From positions 2,976,001 to 3,040,000 of the forward strand of contig NZ_VFOO01000001.1 in assembly GCF_006716115.1 (NCBI RefSeq): a stretch of 64,000 nucleotides of DNA, read 5' to 3'. Source of the DNA: Subtercola boreus (GTDB lineage Bacteria; Actinomycetota; Actinomycetes; Actinomycetales; Microbacteriaceae). Shown piece by piece: positions 53,388-62,666 of the stretch. Under the pieces are notes generated by a model that was given only the letters and a program-made list of their open reading frames with translations, did not search any database and was not told where the DNA came from. How positions within the stretch are numbered: position 1 is the stretch's first letter; each line of letters starts with the position of its first letter. A program made the position numbers and the translations under genes.

Positions 53388-53406
53388 GGCGGGGCTACGC
53401 CCCGCC
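53388..53406 (-). terminator. Hairpin at the rocD stop codon
   Basis: GGCGGGG / CCCCGCC pair around a 5-nt loop that contains the rocD stop codon (53395-53397). It probably limits read-through from the arginine operon into the transporter gene. Confidence 0.5.
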
Positions 53407-54738
53407 GAGCTCCTCCAGCACCGCGGCGAGCTGGTCGACCGCCCAGTCGAGGTCGGCCTCCGAGACCACGAGAGGCGGCGCGAGGCGGATGGTCGAACCG
53501 TGGGTGTCCTTTGCGAGCACGCCGCGCTCCATCAGTCGCTCGCAGACCTCGCGGCCGGCGGCGAGCGCGGGGTCGATGTCGATCCCGGCCCAGAGACCGG
53601 CGGTGCGCACGGCGAGAACTCCGTGGCCGAGGAGCGCCTCGAGGCGCGCCGCGAGAAGGGCGCCCCGGGCATCCGCGAGCCGCTGGTACTCGCCGGTGGC
53701 GAGCATGGCGACGACAGCGCTGCCGACCGCGGCGGCGAGCGGATTGCCGCCGAACGTCGAGCCGTGTTCGCCGGGGCGGAGCACCCCGAGGATGTCGGCG
53801 TTGCCGACCACAGCGGAGACGGGAACGATTCCGCCGCCGAGCGCCTTGCCGAGCAGGTAGAGGTCGGGCACGACGCCGACGCGGTCGCACGCGAAAGTCG
53901 TTCCGGTGCGGCCGAGGCCGGACTGGATCTCATCCGCGATCATCAACACGTTGTGGGCGGTGCAGATGTCACGCACGGCGGGCAGATACGACGCAGGCGG
54001 CACGATGATGCCGGCCTCGCCCTGGATCGGCTCCAGCAGAACGGCGACCGTGTTCTCGTCGATTGCCGCCTCGAGCGCCGCGGCATCGCCGTACGACACC
54101 GAGCGGAAACCGGGCGTGAAGGGGCCGAAGCCGTCACGTGCGGAGGCGTCGTCGGAGAAGCTCACGATCGAGATCGTGCGCCCGTGGAAGTTGCCGTCGG
54201 CGACGACGATGTTCGCCCGCCCGTCGGCGACACCTTTCACGCGGTAGCCCCAGGCGCGGGCGACCTTGATTCCGGACTCCACCGCCTCGGCACCGGTGTT
54301 CATCGGCAACACCATGTCCTTGCCGGTGAGGGCGGCCAGCGCCTCGACGAAGGGGCCGAGCTGGTCGTTGTGGAAGGCGCGCGAGGTCAGGGTGATGCGG
54401 CCGAGCTGGGCGCGGGCGGCATCCAGCAGCACCGGGTTGGAGTGACCGAAGTTCACGGCCGAGTAGGCGGCGAGGCAGTCGAGGTAACGGCGACCGTCGA
54501 CGGCTGTGACCCAGGCCCCGTCGCCGGATTCCACCACGATCGGCAGGGGGTGGTAGTTGTGCGCGGCGTGCGCCTCCTCGCGGGCGATGGCCCGGTCGGT
54601 CGCGGTGGCGTCCCCGGTGAGGGTGGCGTCCCCGGTCAGGGTGGCGTCCCCGGTGAGGGTGGCGTCCCCGGTCAGGGTGGCGTCCCCGTTCAGGGTGGCG
54701 GGCGAAGCGGCTCCGGATGCCGTACCGACCGTGCTCAT
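53395..54738 (-). CDS. rocD: Ornithine aminotransferase (class III PLP enzyme) with repetitive N-terminus
   Basis: A 447-residue enzyme that converts ornithine to glutamate-5-semialdehyde. The class III core has HPLPIVVESGDGAWVTAVDGRRYLD, NTGAEAVESGIKVARAWGY, EPIQGEAGI, DEIQSGLGRTG and the PLP lysine in YLLGKALGGGIVPVSA. Residues ~16-45 are five tandem copies of GDATLT-type hexapeptides encoded by an 18-bp DNA repeat, which are not part of the fold. The ATG at 54738 overlaps the ddaH stop (ATGA). Confidence 0.93.
   Translation of the reverse strand: MSTVGTASGAASPATLNGDATLTGDATLTGDATLTGDATLTGDATATDRAIAREEAHAAHNYHPLPIVVESGDGAWVTAVDGRRYLDCLAAYSAVNFGHSNPVLLDAARAQLGRITLTSRAFHNDQLGPFVEALAALTGKDMVLPMNTGAEAVESGIKVARAWGYRVKGVADGRANIVVADGNFHGRTISIVSFSDDASARDGFGPFTPGFRSVSYGDAAALEAAIDENTVAVLLEPIQGEAGIIVPPASYLPAVRDICTAHNVLMIADEIQSGLGRTGTTFACDRVGVVPDLYLLGKALGGGIVPVSAVVGNADILGVLRPGEHGSTFGGNPLAAAVGSAVVAMLATGEYQRLADARGALLAARLEALLGHGVLAVRTAGLWAGIDIDPALAAGREVCERLMERGVLAKDTHGSTIRLAPPLVVSEADLDWAVDQLAAVLEELGGA
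54604..54693. repeat. Five 18-bp tandem repeats in the rocD N-terminus
   Basis: Units of GGTGGCGTCCCCGGT(G/C)AG (plus strand) begin at 54604, 54622, 54640, 54658 and 54676. They keep the reading frame and encode GDATLT. The copy number probably varies between strains. Confidence 0.95.
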
Positions 54739-55628
54739 CGGCGCAGCTCCAGCGTGCAGCACTTGACCCCGCCGCCGCCGAGCAGCAGCTCGGACAGGTC
54801 GACGCCGATCGGGTTGTAGCCGCGCTCCCGCAGCTGCGCCTCGAATCCGGTGGCACGCGACGCGATGACCACGTTGTACCCGTCGGAGATCGAGTTCAGC
54901 CCGAGCACGGCGGCGTCGGTCTCGCTGACGAGGATCGCGTCGGGGTACCGCCGCTGGAGTTCGGCGCGGCTTGCGGCGTCGAAGGCGCTCGGCAGATAGG
55001 CGATGGTCGCGGCATCCGGAGCCTCATCGGCGGACTCGTTCAGCACGGCGATGGCGGTGTCGAGGTGGTAGAAGTTCGGGTTCACGAGGTTCAGGGTGAC
55101 GACTTCACGGCCGTAGAGCGCTGCGACCTCCTCATGCGAGTTGGATGCACTGCGGAAGCCCGTGCCGGCGAGGATCGTGTCGCCCACGAGCATGAAGTCA
55201 CCTTCGCCCTCGTTGATGTTCTGCGGTTCGGCGACCGCGAAACCGGCGCCTTCGAACCAGCGCATGAATGCCGGCCCCTCGGCCTGGCGCTCGGCATGCG
55301 TGAAGCTGGCCCCGTAGGCCACGTTGTCGATGACGAAACCGCCATTGGCCGTGTAGACCATGTCGGGGAGGCCCTCGATCTGGTCGATGAGTTCGACGGT
55401 GTGGCCGAGCGCGATGTAGGTGTCGTACAGCGTCTGCCACTGGGCCACCGCGAGGGCGGTGTCGGTGGGGAGGGCCGGATCCATCCACGGGTTGATCTTG
55501 TAGGTCACGGTGAAGAACTCGGGGCGGCACATCAGGTAGGTGTGGGGTTTCGCCTGGCGAACGCGAGGTTCGGAGGGGAAGACCTCTTCGAGAGTGGTGG
55601 AAACGGGCAACGAGGTAGACACGGGCAT
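54735..55628 (-). CDS. ddaH: Dimethylarginine dimethylaminohydrolase-like amidinohydrolase
   Basis: A 297-residue pentein-fold hydrolase of the DDAH/arginine-deiminase-related group: MCRPEFFTVTYKINPWMD, YTANGGFVIDN, EGEGDFMLVGDTILAGTGFRS, the catalytic His in NPNFYHLDT and the nucleophile Cys near the end (GGGVKCCTLELRR). It may act on methylarginines or arginine to give citrulline and amines, feeding ornithine to the next gene. The ATG at 55628 has AAGG touching it, so the GTG at 55622 with AAGG at proper distance may be the real start. Confidence 0.88.
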   Translation of the reverse strand: MPVSTSLPVSTTLEEVFPSEPRVRQAKPHTYLMCRPEFFTVTYKINPWMDPALPTDTALAVAQWQTLYDTYIALGHTVELIDQIEGLPDMVYTANGGFVIDNVAYGASFTHAERQAEGPAFMRWFEGAGFAVAEPQNINEGEGDFMLVGDTILAGTGFRSASNSHEEVAALYGREVVTLNLVNPNFYHLDTAIAVLNESADEAPDAATIAYLPSAFDAASRAELQRRYPDAILVSETDAAVLGLNSISDGYNVVIASRATGFEAQLRERGYNPIGVDLSELLLGGGGVKCCTLELRR

Positions 55629-55784
55629 CCTTCGTTCGACGGATGGCGGACGTCGTCCTGAGGCTCCGAGGAGCACGCCAGGCAGCTAGTCTGACACGCT
55701 CGTAATGTCAATAGTCGATCATCCAGCGCTGAAAAACTGCGTTGAATGCGGCGCGATGCAACAAAACGTCGTATGCTCGATCGA

Positions 55785-56213
55785 ATGGACAACCTCGATT
55801 TTCGCATCATCGACCTCCTGAAGCTCAACGCCCGCACGGGATACGGGGACATCGGGCAGGTGATCGGGCTGTCGGCCTCGGCCGTGAAACGGCGCATCGA
55901 CAGGCTGATCGCCGACGGGATCATCCGCGGCTTCACCGTTCTGCTCGACACCTCGCTCGACGGGAAGGTGACCGAAGCCTACGTCGAACTCTTCTGTCGG
56001 GGAACCGTCGCGCCGGCTGAGCTGAAGCGCATCCTGTCGGGCGTGCCCGAGGTCGTCGACGCTGGCACGGTGACCGGCAGTGCCGACGCCATCGTGCACA
56101 TGCGATCGCGCGACATCCCGAGCCTGGAGCTGGCACTCGAGAGGGTTCGCATCGCGCCGAACGTCGATCACACGCGGAGTGCGATCGTGCTGTCGAACCT
56201 CATCAAACGGTAG
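55785..56213 (+). CDS. Lrp/AsnC-family transcriptional regulator
   Basis: A 142-residue regulator divergent from ddaH-rocD and probably controlling it in response to an amino acid. The N-terminal helix-turn-helix (FRIIDLLKLNARTGYGDIGQVIGLSASAVKRRIDRL) is followed by the RAM ligand domain (about 65-140). TATGCT (55772-55777) is a -10 box 7 nt before the ATG at 55785, suggesting a leaderless message; the ATG at 55773 would lie inside this box. The stop codon is the first base of a tandem-repeat tract. Confidence 0.9.
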   Translation: MDNLDFRIIDLLKLNARTGYGDIGQVIGLSASAVKRRIDRLIADGIIRGFTVLLDTSLDGKVTEAYVELFCRGTVAPAELKRILSGVPEVVDAGTVTGSADAIVHMRSRDIPSLELALERVRIAPNVDHTRSAIVLSNLIKR

Positions 56214-56309: not shown

Positions 56310-59300
56310 TCAGCCGATCCGCACAGCCGCGACGGGGCTGGCTCCGCCGAACCGCCGCGCCGCCACCGTCACCACCTGCGGCGCGAGGAACGGCAGCAGC
56401 TCGATGCGGCCCGCCCGTGTGACGTCTCCCGCGTAGACCGTCACGTCGGGCGAACCGCCGAGGGCTTCGGCCAGGGCGCGTGGATCGCCCCCGATCATCC
56501 GAATCCGGGACGCACCGTCGCCCACCTTCGCCGCCCGTTCGAGCCACGCCGCGTCGTTCTCGACGAAGACGCGCACCCGCCGCTCCTTCAACAGTGCGCG
56601 GAGCGGACGCGGCAACTTCAGTGCTGTGCTGAGGCCGAGGGATGCCCGGGCCCGCGTTCCCGCGGCGAGAACCCGCACGAGGGCATCGAACGGCTCACCC
56701 TCGGAGAGCCGCACCACGACGGGAACCGGGCGGTGGCGGAGCACTGTGCGCGTGCCGCCGGAGTCGGGCGCCTCGCCGAGGTCGGGTGCACCGCCGAGGT
56801 CGCGCGCCGCGAACACCGCGCCCCACGCCTCCTCGTCATTGAGCGCTGAGCGCCGCACCATGTCGAACTGCCGCCAGTCGAGCCCGGCTGTCGCCGATTC
56901 GATGAGCTCCCGCACTTTCGGGTCGAGAGCGCCGAGCGTCAGGTCGGTGCTCTCGGTTCCGGGTTCGGTGGTCCAGGTTCCGAGGCGGAAGAGGGCGCCG
57001 GTGCCGGCCGAGCTCTCGTCGCCAGATGCTCCGCTGCCCTGCGCAGCCGGGCCGACGGATGACCGCTTCCAACCGCCGACGGCATGCCGGCCGCTGGCAC
57101 CTCCCGCCAGGGCGCCGTTCACGAACAGGTTCCCCGCCTCGACGCCGGCGAGCCACGCCTCGACCTCGATCGGATCGAGAGAATGGAGCCCTGCGCTCCA
57201 CCCGAAGTCGCTGCTGTTCTGCAGCGCGAGCGCCTCGTCGAGCGTTGACGCCTGCATCACTCCGAGCACCGGCCCCGATGGCGCTCCGAGGTGGAACGGC
57301 GAGCCGGCCGTCACACCCGACCGCACGCCCGGCGACCACAGGAGTCCCTGATCGCCCGACTGCCTAGGTTCGACGATCCTATGGTCGTCGTCGTCGAGCT
57401 TCGTGAGGGCATCCGACACTCGCCCTTCGGCGGGGTGGATGAGCGGACCGACCTCGCTCGCCGCATCCCCCGCCGCCCCGACCTTCAGCGAGGTCACGGC
57501 GTCGACGAGCTGGCGCGTGAACCGGCTGGACTTCGCCGCCGACCCCACCAGGATGACCAGGCTCACCGCAGCGCGGCCCTGGCCGGCGCGACCGAAAGCG
57601 CTCGCCACGATGTCGGCGACGGCGAGGTCGAAATCCGCGCTCGGGGTCACGACGATGGCATTCCGGCCGACCGTGGAGGCGAGCAGCGGCAGGTCGGGGC
57701 GCCACGAGCGGAGGAGTTCCGCCGTCTCGTACGTGCCCGTGAGCACAACGCGATCGACGCGCGGGTCGGTGAGGAGCTGGCGCGTGAGGCCGACAGGGCG
57801 GGCGGGCTCGGGGGCGACCGAATGGGCGTCGTCGTGGTCGGTGGCGGCGTCGTCGGTGGTGGCGTCGTCTGCGTCGGCGTCGTCGTCGTCTGCGGCGGCG
57901 GCGTCTGCGGCGGCCGGGGCGGGGAGGGCGACGGCCGGGTCCGTCGCGAGGTCGGCCGCGGCATCCGGATGCCCGCCCTCGGCCGCGCGCTCGGCGAGGT
58001 CGACCAGCAGCAGCACCTCCCGTGGGATCCCCGCCTCCCAGAGCACCTCGCAGAACACCGCGGATGCTCGGCGAACCTCGGGCGGTGGCGAGAGCACGAC
58101 GGCCGCGCCCGCCGCGAGCGCGGAGAACACGCCTTCCGCCGCATCGGCGAGAGGCGTGGGTGCCGCCGGACGGACGACGATCAGGGCCGGCGGGACGAAG
58201 CGCGCCCCGTCCACCTGTTCGAGTCCGCTGGCGGCCGCCGCGAACCGAACCGCTCCGTCGACTGCCTCGCTGACCTCGGAATCACCCTCGCCGAGGATCG
58301 TGCCGACCTCGCTCGCCAACACCTCGACCAGGCGATCGCGGCCCGCTTCGAGCGCGAGGCCCGCGTGCCGGAGTGCTGCGGAACGCGTCTCAGCCGGTGC
58401 TGCGCCCCACTGCGCGCCCGCCACGGCGGCTCGCTCGAGGAGAGCGTCGAGCGTCGCCGGTGCGAAGATCCGGGCGGCGGCTATCGTCTCGCTGCCGAGC
58501 CGCGAGCCCTCGACACGCGCCAGGATCTCGCGGGCGCGATCGCGGTCAGCCGGCACCGCCGGGTCGAGCCCGCGCCGAGGAGCACGAGTCGAGGTGGCGT
58601 CGGATGCTGCGTCGGGCGCGACAGCAGCCAGCCCGTCGGCCCCAGCCAGCCCGTCGACAGCAGCCAGCCCGTCGGCCCCAGCCAGCCCGTCGTGCGCTGC
58701 CGACCCCGCAGCGCCATCCAGACCGCCACCTGCGTCGGGCCTGCCCGATTCGCCGAGCGAAGCGAGGAACCGGTCCCGCTCCCGCACGAACACCGGCTGG
58801 TCCGTGGCCGGGTCGAAGCCCTCCGCGAGGAGGTTCTCGTCCCGGGCGTCCTCACCGAGGCGCTTCACAAGATCGGCCGCGACGACCGGGAAGTCCCGGG
58901 GAGCCACGATCGGCGCAGTGATCACGAGCCCGCCGACCTCCCGGCGCACGGCAGCGGCCACGCCGGGCGACACCCCGAGCTGCAGTTCGACGGCCAGGCG
59001 ATCGGAGACCCCCCGCTGTGCGGCCAGAAGCCACGCGTATGCCGCATCGAACAGGTTCTGGCCCGCCACGACCACGCGCACGGACTCGGTGCGCTCCGGG
59101 GTCAGCGCGGCATCCACCAGCCCGAGGAGTCCGGGCCCCGCCACAATTCGCACCGTGAGCGGAGCTCCGCCGGCGTCGACGCGCACCCGCGCCCACTCCA
59201 TCAGTCGTTCCAGCGCGGCAGGCGCTTCGGGTGAGCCCGCTGGCAGCGTGATGCCGGCCTCCAGCGACAGCAACTGCGGTCGGGAGAGGATGCTCTGCAG

Positions 59301-60290
59301 CACGGCGATCGTCAGGTCGAGGTCTGTGGGCCTGCGCACATCGAGCGTGATCATCTTCGGCGCTGAGCCCGCCCCACCGCCGGCCAGCGCCAGCTCGTAG
59401 ACCGGCAGGAGCGCTTCGGCGACACGCTCGACCGCCTCTTCGAAGGCCCAGGGCGAGGGGGAGGCCGCGACATCCGGAACCGCGAACATGACGCGGTCGA
59501 CGTTGCCGCGCACCAGCAGCTCGCGGATGCCGTCCCGGCGGCTCGCCGCCCCCGCCCCGCCGAGCACGGGTTCGCCCAGCTGGGTCAGGTTCAGGCGGGA
59601 GCCGTCAGCGGTGAGACGTGCGATCGTCTCGGCCAGCCGCGACGGGGTCGCGTCGGCGACGAGGTGCCCGACCATCCGGCGCAGCACCCGTTTCGACGTC
59701 GGCACGACGGCCCAGGGCAGCGCCTCTCCGACGGTGCTTCCGACCCGGATGGCCGACCGCAGTCGCGCGGGGAACAACTCGGGTGTGAGCGCGCTGAGCC
59801 GCTCGAGGTTCCTCGCGGCGACCGCGTTGTCTTCGGGGCGCACGACGCCGTCGACGAACGCGGTCACGAAGGCAAGCCCGGCGGGTTCGCGCACGACGTG
59901 CAGAAGGCGCGTCGCCGCAGAATCGGGGCCGGAACCCGTCTCGCCCGCGGCCCCGCGTGCGGGCGCGTCGCCTGGAGTGTCACCGGGGGTGCTGCTCTCG
60001 TTCAGCCAGCGACGCACCAGTGCGACGGCACCGGCACCGAGGCCGTCAGCACTGGGGTCACCGGCACCAAGGTCACCGGCACCGGGGTCATCGGCCCCGA
60101 GGTCATTGACGCCGTCACGATCGTCGTCGGCGGCGAGGCCATCAGCTTCGAGGTCATCAGCCTTGAAGCCATCAGCACCGGGGTCATCAGAACCGAGGCC
60201 ATCCCGCCCGGCGGACCGGTCGCCCCGGGGGTCGCCGCCGACTCCCTCGTCCGTCTCGGCCGCGCGTTCCTCGGACTTCTGGTCGACCAT
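56310..60290 (-). CDS. PutA-like protein with degenerate active sites (putative pseudoenzyme)
   Basis: A 1326-residue protein collinear with actinobacterial PutA (proline dehydrogenase then glutamate-semialdehyde dehydrogenase). The barrel part (about 120-520) keeps framework text such as DLDLTIAVLQSILSRPQLLSLEAGI and RREVGGL but lacks the usual substrate/FAD Lys and Tyr positions and is shortened before ALTPERTESVRVVVAGQNLFD. In the aldehyde-dehydrogenase part (about 600-1150) the general-base Glu is Ser872 (LLASTVGRN), the nucleophile Cys is Arg906 (AGQGRAA) and the NAD-binding Glu is Ala1003 (GAPSGPV). The spacings (34 and 97) equal the canonical ones. Acidic low-complexity inserts occupy ~1-95, ~540-580 and ~770-810. 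The reading frame is uninterrupted. It sits beside arginine/ornithine genes and the Lrp regulator. Confidence 0.85.
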   Translation of the reverse strand: MVDQKSEERAAETDEGVGGDPRGDRSAGRDGLGSDDPGADGFKADDLEADGLAADDDRDGVNDLGADDPGAGDLGAGDPSADGLGAGAVALVRRWLNESSTPGDTPGDAPARGAAGETGSGPDSAATRLLHVVREPAGLAFVTAFVDGVVRPEDNAVAARNLERLSALTPELFPARLRSAIRVGSTVGEALPWAVVPTSKRVLRRMVGHLVADATPSRLAETIARLTADGSRLNLTQLGEPVLGGAGAASRRDGIRELLVRGNVDRVMFAVPDVAASPSPWAFEEAVERVAEALLPVYELALAGGGAGSAPKMITLDVRRPTDLDLTIAVLQSILSRPQLLSLEAGITLPAGSPEAPAALERLMEWARVRVDAGGAPLTVRIVAGPGLLGLVDAALTPERTESVRVVVAGQNLFDAAYAWLLAAQRGVSDRLAVELQLGVSPGVAAAVRREVGGLVITAPIVAPRDFPVVAADLVKRLGEDARDENLLAEGFDPATDQPVFVRERDRFLASLGESGRPDAGGGLDGAAGSAAHDGLAGADGLAAVDGLAGADGLAAVAPDAASDATSTRAPRRGLDPAVPADRDRAREILARVEGSRLGSETIAAARIFAPATLDALLERAAVAGAQWGAAPAETRSAALRHAGLALEAGRDRLVEVLASEVGTILGEGDSEVSEAVDGAVRFAAAASGLEQVDGARFVPPALIVVRPAAPTPLADAAEGVFSALAAGAAVVLSPPPEVRRASAVFCEVLWEAGIPREVLLLVDLAERAAEGGHPDAAADLATDPAVALPAPAAADAAAADDDDADADDATTDDAATDHDDAHSVAPEPARPVGLTRQLLTDPRVDRVVLTGTYETAELLRSWRPDLPLLASTVGRNAIVVTPSADFDLAVADIVASAFGRAGQGRAAVSLVILVGSAAKSSRFTRQLVDAVTSLKVGAAGDAASEVGPLIHPAEGRVSDALTKLDDDDHRIVEPRQSGDQGLLWSPGVRSGVTAGSPFHLGAPSGPVLGVMQASTLDEALALQNSSDFGWSAGLHSLDPIEVEAWLAGVEAGNLFVNGALAGGASGRHAVGGWKRSSVGPAAQGSGASGDESSAGTGALFRLGTWTTEPGTESTDLTLGALDPKVRELIESATAGLDWRQFDMVRRSALNDEEAWGAVFAARDLGGAPDLGEAPDSGGTRTVLRHRPVPVVVRLSEGEPFDALVRVLAAGTRARASLGLSTALKLPRPLRALLKERRVRVFVENDAAWLERAAKVGDGASRIRMIGGDPRALAEALGGSPDVTVYAGDVTRAGRIELLPFLAPQVVTVAARRFGGASPVAAVRIG
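58621..58692. repeat. 36-bp tandem duplication inside the PutA-like gene
   Basis: Two exact 36-bp copies (58621-58656 and 58657-58692) encode the DGLAGADGLAAV-type repeat of the interdomain insert. The reading frame is kept. Confidence 0.9.
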
Positions 60291-60353
60291 GTTCCGACCC
60301 TAACGCGGCGCGACAGGCGCGCACCGGGGGGACACGCCCTCGGCGCACGTCAG

Positions 60354-61382
60354 CTAGTGCCAGCGGTGATCCTGGATGGTGGCGCGCGGCCCGAACTTCG
60401 GTTTCGGAACCCCGCTGGCGAGGATCAGGCGCACCACGCGCTGCCGGTGCCCGCGCCACGGTTCCAGCAGTTCGAGCATCCCGTCGTCGTCGACCGGTTC
60501 GCCGATGAGAACCCAGCCGACGTGGGCGGCGAGGTGGAAGTCGCCGACGCTCACGGCATCCGGATGCCCGTGGGAGCGCTGGCTCGTCTCCGCGGCCGTC
60601 CACGCGCCGACGCCGTGCACGGTCTGCAGCTTCTCGAGCACGCCCTCGTGCGTGCGAGCGGGGCGCGCACTCACGCCCGCCGCCTCGCCGGCCAGCCCAC
60701 CGCGCTCCCCCGACACGTCGACTGCACCGGTGCCACCCGCACCCGCCCTCTGCGCCAACCGGTCGAGGCCCGCCGCCACCGCGGCCGCCGCCAGCACAGC
60801 GCGCGACCGGTTCGGGCCGACGCCGGCCCGGTGCCACTCCCACGACGGGATCAGTGCCCACTGCCGGGGGCTCGGCTGCACCCGCATCCCCTCCGGTGCA
60901 GGGCCCGGCGGGATTTCACCGTACTTGCCCACCAGATAGCGCCACGCGCGGCGGGCCTCGATCGTGGTGACCTTCTGCTCCAGGATGGTCGGCACGAGCG
61001 ACTCGAAGACAAGCGCCGTCGAGGTGAGCCAGAGTCCCGGATGCTGCCGCCGCACCTCAGCCAACGGCGGAACCCGCGACAGGTCGAGCCCGCTCCAGTC
61101 GTCGCCGGCTCCGAGGAGCTCGGGGAGAGCATCCAGAACCCACTCGGCCCCGGCGCCCCACGCGGTCGCGTGCACCTGCCCGTCGCCCGAACGCGTCTCG
61201 GCATGCAGGGTCGCGGTGCCCTCGGGCGTGCGGATGACTCGCCAGAACCCGTTCGGAGTGAACCGCATCGTCGGCTCCTGCTGGCCGCGCAGCAGCGGCC
61301 CGACCGTCTGGCGGAGGTTCACCGGGCGCGCGGGCGCGTACGCGCTGGTGAGGGGCCGGGGATCGGCGAGCAGAGCATCCAT
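60354..61382 (-). CDS. DNA-3-methyladenine glycosylase II (AlkA-like)
   Basis: A 342-residue helix-hairpin-helix base-excision glycosylase that would remove alkylated purines. The HhH motif GVGAWTAAETS is followed by VSVGDFHL, where the Asp is the catalytic residue. LEQKVTTIEARRAWRYLV and RVVRLILASG complete the core. A Gly/Ala-rich insert (about 212-245, GAGGTGAVDVSGERGG) lies before the HhH. The ATG at 61382 was chosen; the upstream open frame is low-complexity. It is 63 bp beyond the PutA-like start region on the same strand. Confidence 0.88.
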   Translation of the reverse strand: MDALLADPRPLTSAYAPARPVNLRQTVGPLLRGQQEPTMRFTPNGFWRVIRTPEGTATLHAETRSGDGQVHATAWGAGAEWVLDALPELLGAGDDWSGLDLSRVPPLAEVRRQHPGLWLTSTALVFESLVPTILEQKVTTIEARRAWRYLVGKYGEIPPGPAPEGMRVQPSPRQWALIPSWEWHRAGVGPNRSRAVLAAAAVAAGLDRLAQRAGAGGTGAVDVSGERGGLAGEAAGVSARPARTHEGVLEKLQTVHGVGAWTAAETSQRSHGHPDAVSVGDFHLAAHVGWVLIGEPVDDDGMLELLEPWRGHRQRVVRLILASGVPKPKFGPRATIQDHRWH

Positions 61383-61583
61383 CCTGCCCGCCACCCTAGT
61401 TCGCCCGCCCGACACTCGCACCCTGCGCGCACCAGACTCGCGCCCTACTCGCGCCCCGCTCGCACCCCCGCCCACGCCACGCCCCCAACCCGCCCACGCC
61501 CAAGGGACCCATAACGTCCCAACGCGACCGCCGCAGCGCGATCTGCGACCCTTCGCGTCTCGCAGCCACGTACGCGGCACCGC
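61383..61583. other. 201-bp intergenic region with a diverged family repeat
   Basis: No gene is seen. The left half is C-rich. At 61501-61553 the text AAGGGACCCATAACGTCCC ... GACCCTTCGCG has outer AAGGG/CCCTT and inner GGGAC/GTCCC pairing, a diverged relative of the palindrome at 36833. Confidence 0.5.
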
Positions 61584-62666
61584 TCACGCGGAGAGGGAGG
61601 CGACACGCGACGAGATGCGGGTGGATGCCGCAGCCGCGAGTTCCGCGAGGAGCACCGCCGTGGTGGCCCAGTCGATGCACGCGTCAGTGATGCTCTGGCC
61701 GAAGACGAGCGACGACGCATCCGCACCCGGCTCGAGCTTCTGCGACCCCGCAACGAGGAAGCTCTCCATCATGATCCCCGAGATCGCATCGCCCGCGAGA
61801 ACCTGCGCGGCGAGCTCGCGCACCACCGCTACCTGGCGCACGTGGTCCTTGCCGCTGTTGGCGTGGCTGGCGTCCACGATCACGCGGGGCGGCAACCCGG
61901 CCCGAGCGAGCAGCGCGGTCGCCGCCGCAACGGAAGCCGACGACGAGTTCGGGCCTCCGCGCCCACCCCGCAGGATGACGTGCCCCGCAGTGTTGCCCGT
62001 CGTCTCGACGGCGGCAGCCATCCCGAGCTCGTCGATGCCGAAGAAGACGTGCGGCTGCGCCGACGACACGCACCCGTCGACCGCCACCTGCACATCCCCG
62101 TCGGTGGCGTTCTTGAAACCGACCGGCATCGACAGGCCCGAGGCCAGCTGGCGGTGGATCTGGCTCTCCGTCGTGCGGGCTCCGATCGCGCCCCAGCTCA
62201 CCGCGTCCGCGATGTACTGCGGGCTGGTCGGCTCGAGGAACTCGCACCCCACGGGCAGCCCGAGGTCGAGGATGTCGCGGAGCAGCAACCGCGCAATGCG
62301 GAGCCCGTCCGCCACCCGGTGCGTTCCATCCAGGTACGGATCGTTGATGAGACCCTTCCATCCGCCCGTGGATCGAGGCTTCTCGAAGTACACCCGCATC
62401 ACGATCAGCATCGAGTCCGCGACGGAGGCGGCGATCGGGGCGAGCCGGCGCGCGTACTCGAGTGCGGCATCCGGATCGTGCACGGAGCACGGCCCGACCA
62501 CCACCAGCAGCCGCGGGTCCTCTCCACGCAGGATGGCTTCGATCTCGGCGCGCGACGACGACACGAGCCCGGACTGCGCCGGTGTGAGCGGCAGTTCGGT
62601 GCGGAGCGCCAGCGGTGTCGGCAGCGGAGAGAAGCGGGTGACGCGGAGGTCTTCGGTGGTGCTCAT
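61584..62666 (-). CDS. aroF: 3-deoxy-7-phosphoheptulonate (DAHP) synthase, class I
   Basis: Catalyses the first step of aromatic amino-acid synthesis from phosphoenolpyruvate and erythrose-4-phosphate. The 360-residue AroF/G/H-type enzyme has LLVVVGPCSVHD, MRVYFEKPRSTGGWKGLINDP, GCEFLEPTSPQYIADAVSWGAIGARTTESQ, GFKNATDGD, HVILRGG and VDASHANSGKD, so metal and PEP ligands are intact. Its upstream region encodes an aromatic-rich leader peptide and attenuator-like hairpins, implying control by aromatic amino-acid supply. Confidence 0.96.
   Translation of the reverse strand: MSTTEDLRVTRFSPLPTPLALRTELPLTPAQSGLVSSSRAEIEAILRGEDPRLLVVVGPCSVHDPDAALEYARRLAPIAASVADSMLIVMRVYFEKPRSTGGWKGLINDPYLDGTHRVADGLRIARLLLRDILDLGLPVGCEFLEPTSPQYIADAVSWGAIGARTTESQIHRQLASGLSMPVGFKNATDGDVQVAVDGCVSSAQPHVFFGIDELGMAAAVETTGNTAGHVILRGGRGGPNSSSASVAAATALLARAGLPPRVIVDASHANSGKDHVRQVAVVRELAAQVLAGDAISGIMMESFLVAGSQKLEPGADASSLVFGQSITDACIDWATTAVLLAELAAAASTRISSRVASLSA

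Follow-up and report, generated by a model that had tools for sequence, protein, structure and literature searches.

The putB gene of Subtercola boreus

The window analysed here is the whole stretch of 64,000 nucleotides from positions 2,976,001 to 3,040,000 of contig NZ_VFOO01000001.1 of Subtercola boreus (Microbacteriaceae; assembly GCF_006716115.1), whose genome of 4.21 Mb, G000 below, is in two contigs. Its minus strand carries putB, a gene for a second paralogue of PutA, which reads from an ATG at 60290 to a stop codon at 56310-56312 with no break across 1326 codons and so lacks the broken frame of a pseudogene. Judged by its residues, the product is a catalytically dead PutA, and among related dead copies the selective constraint has shifted to the C-terminal domain (CTD), the main clue to the gene and one that the initial annotation had missed.

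The open PutA-like frame recognized by that annotation is corroborated by Pfam, with matches to Aldedh (3.3e-52) and Pro_dh (2.4e-10), both above cut-offs, and by the closest solved relative, the type B PutA of Corynebacterium freiburgense (5ux5; phmmer 3e-144), of the type also labelled "class 3B". A Pro_dh search of the genome revealed one strong place (202 bits, in a 1156-residue frame) besides the weak one in the window, and the second, canonical putA that the initial annotation had suggested looking for is thereby found. This intact PutA served as the reference in reading 20 sites, whose names (Lys329/K329, Y437 and others) follow E. coli PutA.

In the aldehyde dehydrogenase (ALDH) domain, Glu731, Cys765 and the ExFGP Glu862 of the intact protein are replaced by Ser872, Arg906 and Ala1003, as had been proposed, and the canonical spacings of 34 and 97 residues are identical in the two proteins. 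The oxyanion Asn (now Pro711) and the Lys of the nicotinamide adenine dinucleotide (NAD) site (now Ser734) are lost as well. The proline dehydrogenase (PRODH) domain, already suspected of lacking its Lys, Tyr and a stretch of the flavin adenine dinucleotide (FAD) region, does so: the Lys is Ala270, the Tyr of LQAY is Gly352, the Tyr of YTPVV is Thr458, and the FAD region from RIV to ALxPE spans 22 residues rather than the 49 of the intact copy (27 fewer). The first Arg of RRLEE (Lys476) and the His of GHN (Gln411) are changed too; the Asp of NLD (D317), the second Arg (R477) and E480 are retained. PRODH, ALDH and C-terminal domains are thus present in one chain, as in a type B PutA, and of the residues that define its two active sites (the PRODH Lys, Tyr and Arg pair, and the ALDH Asn, Glu, Cys and ExFGP Glu) only R477 is left. 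As a member of an enzyme family that has 12 of its own 14 diagnostic sites changed, the protein is predicted to be incapable of proline dehydrogenase or Δ1-pyrroline-5-carboxylate (P5C)/glutamate semialdehyde dehydrogenase chemistry. The losses are peculiar to putB, for every one of the 17 copies of the other paralogue in the first alignment matches the reference at 19 or all 20 of the sites read. A sequencing or assembly artefact is practically inconceivable, given the number of sites changed in a frame open for 1326 codons on a 4.05 Mb contig; the same gene is degenerate at the same locus in five related species, whose similar losses make a base-call error implausible.

The protein sequence is compatible with the PutA fold. 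AlphaFold2 models of residues 116-515 (mean predicted local distance difference test score, pLDDT, 87.4; predicted template modelling score, pTM, 0.86) and residues 576-1326 (pLDDT 82.7, pTM 0.85) both have 5ux5 as best match in the PDB, although their input alignments include live relatives and lean the models towards that fold. The earlier idea of a fold kept without catalysis therefore holds for the loss of catalytic sites and for compatibility with the fold, and the chain itself would presumably fold like PutA. The window protein resembles 5ux5 in its order PRODH-ALDH-CTD, with 5ux5 the top match in sequence and in fold; it differs in that neither domain has its catalytic residues, in that the FAD region is incomplete, and in the relatively raised constraint on its CTD.

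Paralogues A and B in the genus

Of 60 relatives, 56 gave a match to the window protein, and the genes fall into two types, A (frames of 1156-1223 residues) and B (mostly 1190-1450 residues). Among the 12 genomes sampled from the genus, B is intact in six (G001, G003, G004, G005, G006 and G009) and degenerate in six (G000, G002, G007, G008, G010 and G011); copies without catalytic residues are called dead below. An intact A accompanies the dead B in all six of the latter, and a search for A in G001 (86% complete) and G004 (98%), where B is intact, found none. The B locus is orthologous throughout, with an AlkA-like gene, putB, Lrp, DDAH and a probable ornithine aminotransferase (OAT) gene together in 12 of 12 genomes, though split across two contigs in G001, G008 and G011. 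A tree of B groups G002 with the other five dead copies (approximately unbiased test against placement with live copies, p 0.0005), as a single origin of death in the genus would have it, whereas an rpoB tree places G002 with species that have live copies; long branches or transfer could explain the conflict.

Constraint on the dead copies

The initial annotation had called for a comparison of nonsynonymous (dN) and synonymous (dS) change, and this reveals purifying selection on relatives of the window gene. For the dead B of G008 and G010, the dN/dS ratio (omega) is 0.253 in the N-terminal part (dS 0.34) and 0.160 in the C-terminal part (dS 0.38), and omega of 1 is rejected for both, with twice the log-likelihood difference (2dlnL) at 131 and 52, respectively; the live A of the same pair has omega 0.056 (dS 0.39). 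In another, larger genus of the family, g14, the pair G105-G108 has omega 0.033 for the dead copy and 0.028 for the live one (dS 1.37 and 0.86); the value for G113-G114 (dead omega 0.016) is unreliable at dS 4.6. Related dead copies have thus been shown to be under purifying selection at the protein level, and retention by selection, the mark of a pseudoenzyme, is seen in relatives and clade but is inseparable from other outcomes for the window's species alone.

A pseudogene in slow decay would be the likeliest contrary explanation: putB, redundant beside an intact A, would have lost catalysis and be drifting, its frame kept open by the scarcity of stop codons in GC-rich DNA. The dN of the dead B of G008-G010 is about four times that of A (0.087 versus 0.021), as such drift would have it, and within the genus no dead B occurs without an intact A. 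Decay is nevertheless rather unlikely, since omega is not near 1 in relatives or clade and the window gene still has the G+C pattern of coding DNA across its codon positions (GC1 0.803, GC2 0.557, GC3 0.841).

The distribution of constraint along the protein also argues against decay. In domain-wise estimates from a hand-written codon model on fixed trees, the dead copies of the window clade have their lowest omega in the CTD core (0.069), followed by the helical arm (0.091), ALDH (0.129) and PRODH (0.158). In the live B copies the CTD core is instead the highest, with 0.087 against 0.044 for ALDH and 0.049 for PRODH, and likewise in the live A copies (0.107, 0.034 and 0.017); imposing the ALDH omega on the CTD costs 10.1 in 2dlnL for the dead copies and 14.2 for the live ones. 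Sequence identity gives the same picture: among five dead copies (the clade without G002) it is 0.55 in PRODH, 0.57 in ALDH and 0.82 in the CTD core, residues 1176-1298, versus 0.87, 0.85 and 0.80 among six live B copies, so that the core is as conserved in dead copies as in live ones. The difference of differences is 0.30, with a 99% interval of 0.19-0.40 from a bootstrap over columns. Constraint in the window clade is inverted, the CTD core being the loosest domain of live PutAs and the tightest of dead ones. A constraint on the DNA was considered and found unsupported; divergence at fourfold sites is much the same in the CTD as in the rest of the gene, and the constraint therefore acts on the protein.

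Degenerate copies across the family

An evenly drawn sample of 70 genomes of the family was used to fetch PutA genes and read 14 sites in each, a copy being scored as degenerate when at least two differed. The counts leave out G019, an 86%-complete genome whose sole gene is broken into two frames, and a second, partial frame of G090 with intact ALDH sites, G090 itself still being scored as two-copy. Degenerate copies occur in 18 genomes, six of the window's genus and 12 others each of another genus (G014, G024, G027, G029, G030, G034, G064, G068, G080, G082, G084 and G089). The degree of death is uneven: in G034 and G064 the Asn, Glu and Cys of ALDH are still present, while the losses of G014 are limited to the Lys of PRODH and the Glu of ALDH. 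The half-dead copies of G034 and G014 (L067 and L069), with the PRODH Lys gone and most or all ALDH catalytic residues kept, are a possible intermediate stage.

By hand count, 18 of the 31 genomes with two copies have a degenerate one, as against none of the 39 single-copy genomes with a whole frame (Fisher value 9e-9, which ignores relatedness), copy number being taken from searches with the window protein, by which diverged second copies can be missed. This association with a second copy, intact in 18 of 18 cases, is a further point for slow decay. A quick tree of 100 rows, without six fragment rows, requires at least four changes to the degenerate state, a number made unsure by long branches, and places no such change within a 38-row branch that contains all 17 A copies.

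A dead copy conserved across the sampled genomes of one genus

All 16 genomes sampled from g14 have a match to the dead copy of G024, itself a member of that genus, the best matches being at least 47% identical. Fifteen of these copies were read, G104 included, and all lack the catalytic residues; the dead-type copy of G109, which lies in two frames, is not among the 15. Within the CTD, identity among 14 dead copies (0.68-0.70) is similar to that among six live ones (0.67-0.72), whereas in PRODH and ALDH it is 0.52-0.58 for dead versus 0.84-0.87 for live copies. A search of 149 genomes of the order for the g14-type dead copy (E<=1e-130) gave six matches in other genera of the family, none of them dead but all PutAs intact at 13 or 14 of the 14 sites; at so strict a cut-off, this is weak evidence that the dead type is absent outside g14.

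A live-type copy intact at 14 of 14 sites is present in G024, G105, G108, G110, G113, G114, G103, G109, G115, G116 and G117, and that of G111 is split over two frames. Ten g14 genomes were searched with the live G024 protein at E<=1e-30, which found the live type in six (G103, G109, G111, G115, G116 and G117) and nothing beyond the dead copy in G106, G107, G112 and G104. The last two are 92 and 72% complete, respectively, but G106 and G107 each consist of one contig (100 and 99% complete), and without a detectable intact PutA they indicate that a dead PutA can persist after its live counterpart has gone. The rule that a dead copy always accompanies a live PutA, which had held in 18 of 18 cases in the first samples, is rejected by these two genomes, as is the live PutA as the generally likeliest partner of the dead protein. 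For a pseudogene in slow decay, it is hard to accommodate a copy that is matched in every sampled genome of a genus, has in one pair an omega close to the live enzyme's, and persists in two complete genomes where no intact PutA is detectable.

The g14 copies also bear on another explanation, that a new chemistry or ligand site has arisen in the old fold, giving a neofunctional enzyme or a small-molecule sensor. Thirteen of the 15 share 69 invariant residues that are missing from ten aligned live copies and are spread across all domains, positions of the former active sites have become fixed for new residues (Asp where PRODH had its Lys), and the persistence of the gene in G106 and G107 points the same way. 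Furthermore, of 11 loci from g14 and allied genera, seven (G105, G106, G107, G110, G114, G117 and G080, but not G024, G111, G115 or G084) have an ATP-binding cassette (ABC) importer directly upstream of the dead putA-like gene on the same strand; Pfam, run on the G106 locus only (L210:5114-11763), identifies a PF04392 binding protein, a PF02653 permease and an ATPase. For the window protein such a gain is quite improbable. The old active-site positions vary among species of its clade as if free (the catalytic Cys being R, S or P), 27 residues of the FAD stretch are missing, and no importer adjoins the gene in the window's genus, nor does one at the five loci examined from further lineages with degenerate copies (G030, G064, G068, G082 and G089). 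The initial annotation's notion of a sensor of the old ligands is likewise unsupported, the residues of the FAD, NAD and substrate sites having been lost.

A proposed non-catalytic role for pseudo-PutA

On balance, and with moderate confidence, the observations favour a conserved pseudo-PutA retained as a non-catalytic protein that acts through its CTD. The second paralogue would have lost both chemistries and then been kept for a non-catalytic job; loss of both together with continuing constraint on the protein is what a pseudoenzyme would show. The CTD of type B PutAs has a part in P5C dehydrogenase activity and in channelling, and is implicated in functional and membrane switching and in membrane binding (PMC5293562). 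With no catalysis in the chain to support, its constraint in the dead copies would serve something else, most simply contact with another molecule, and the protein may fold like PutA and serve, through the CTD, in binding or as a scaffold. Within the window's genus the live PutA is a possible partner because each of the six genomes with a dead B also has an intact A; G106 and G107 speak against it as a general partner, and the job there would be independent of live PutA. A wider proposal, possible but distinctly tentative, is that the family evolved conserved pseudo-PutAs at least four times on the tree, each with a job of its own done mainly through the CTD and independent of live PutA; the CTD of PutAs would thus have a catalysis-free function, perhaps tied to amino-acid import in g14.

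Several observations weigh against retention of this kind. Among the six dead copies of the genus the frame is unbroken only in the window gene, G002 and G010: putB of G007 is split by an in-frame TAA, and contig ends truncate the gene in G008 and G011, the N-terminal frame of G008 stopping 148 bases short of its contig end. In parts of the genus decay may thus be in progress. The stop in G007 agrees with slow decay, as does the growth of a low-complexity insertion in the ALDH domain (residues 769-834), to which nothing in the genus's six live B copies can be aligned and which is mostly of pLDDT below 50. The final motif of the CTD is degenerate as well. The window gene has no close relative among the genomes compared (dS from G010 is 2.6), and in G084-G118, where omega is 0.067 for the dead copy and 0.033 for the live, the dS values (0.75 dead, 0.20 live) are too unequal for a clean comparison. 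Outside the genus the shift towards the CTD is weaker: the ratio of CTD-core to ALDH identity is 0.83-1.03 within four dead groups, against a mean of 0.67 for live pairs (95th percentile 0.82, maximum 1.06), and G014, G027, G034, G064 and G089 fall within the live range when set against live copies.

Dead members of enzyme families offer some parallels. ALDH16 proteins combine an ALDH fold with a further, C-terminal domain that resembles ALDH, and have no PRODH; the window protein, with its PRODH domain, is not one of them, although a bacterial ALDH16 (6mvs) is its 50th Foldseek match. Human ALDH16A1 is described, in the excerpted text of PMC10650815, as a pseudo-aldehyde dehydrogenase without the catalytic triad for which a protein partner is reported; it shares with the window protein an ALDH fold without that triad but is a monofunctional ALDH relative, with no PRODH half evident in that text. 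The prozyme of trypanosome S-adenosylmethionine decarboxylase, according to an excerpt of PMC5201418, is a dead paralogue that joins the live enzyme in a functional complex. The likeness lies in a catalytically dead paralogue retained in the genome; the dead PutA differs in being kept in two complete g14 genomes without a detectable live copy. No dead PutA is reported in the titles or abstract openings among the matches listed, from which subscription papers were mostly absent and in which one PutA query also matched "putative".

It is important to emphasize that the role of the CTD in type B and C PutAs is unsettled, and that a natural protein with this domain but neither reaction allows the catalytic role to be told apart from a non-catalytic one. 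Similarity-based annotation would label such genes as bifunctional proline enzymes, and metabolic models that score them as active would err.

Features of the locus and minor observations

Coordinates are collected in Table 1. The arginine and ornithine genes and Lrp, which the initial annotation took as pointers to a new role, turn out to be inherited context: Lrp, DDAH and OAT also adjoin intact orthologues of putB, both within the genus and in three other genera (G036, G021 and G015). The real start of the putB product may lie downstream of the ATG at 60290.

Table 1. Features in and around putB (window positions)
Feature	Position	Strand	Remarks
putB, second PutA paralogue, catalytically degenerate, 1326 residues	56310..60290	-	frame, Pfam, phmmer, alignment
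N-terminus, residues 1-115, low-complexity, poorly conserved	59946..60290	-	mean identity 0.45, 5 dead copies
Helical arm and PRODH barrel, residues 116-515	58746..59945	-	without Lys, both Tyr and 27 FAD-region residues
ALDH domain, residues 576-1090, active site predicted dead	57021..58565	-	P711, S734, S872, R906, A1003
Asp/Ala-rich low-complexity insertion in ALDH domain, residues 769-834	57789..57986	-	
Codon 906, CGC (Arg), catalytic Cys expected	57573..57575	-	codon read directly
CTD core, residues 1176-1298	56397..56765	-	most constrained segment among this clade's dead copies
Last CTD motif, residues 1299-1319, degenerate in window copy	56334..56396	-	live copies: LPFLREQAVSITxHRFG
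Lrp/AsnC regulator, convergent neighbour	55746..56213	+	synteny kept
DDAH/arginine deiminase-like amidinohydrolase	54735..55676	-	synteny kept
Class-III aminotransferase, probably ornithine aminotransferase	53395..54762	-	synteny kept; substrate by inference
AlkA-like conserved neighbour upstream of putB	60354..61580	-	label from sequence reading

The "AlkA" label is from sequence reading; Pfam gave no match for that product. A putative DAHP synthase gene, also so read (61584-62666), is packed with the AlkA-like gene and putB on one strand (56310-62666). At the loci compared, such a gene lies next to the dead B of G007, G008, G010 and G011 only; neither G002 nor any locus with a live B has it there.

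Two apparent oddities concern contig ends. A stand-alone CTD gene in G014 (a 246-residue frame) was rejected, because the frame lies where contig C1 ends and is 100% identical to the last part of the complete gene on C2, and at L035 (G001, contig C234) the end of putB occurs in both orientations at the contig end, perhaps through an assembly fold-back. The linker of the window putB contains a Gly/Leu/Ala-rich repeat (58566-58745, minus strand). Very long plus-strand frames run antisense to the gene (57291-59234 and 57403-59400), as expected for GC-rich coding DNA, and comparable ones occur at other loci.

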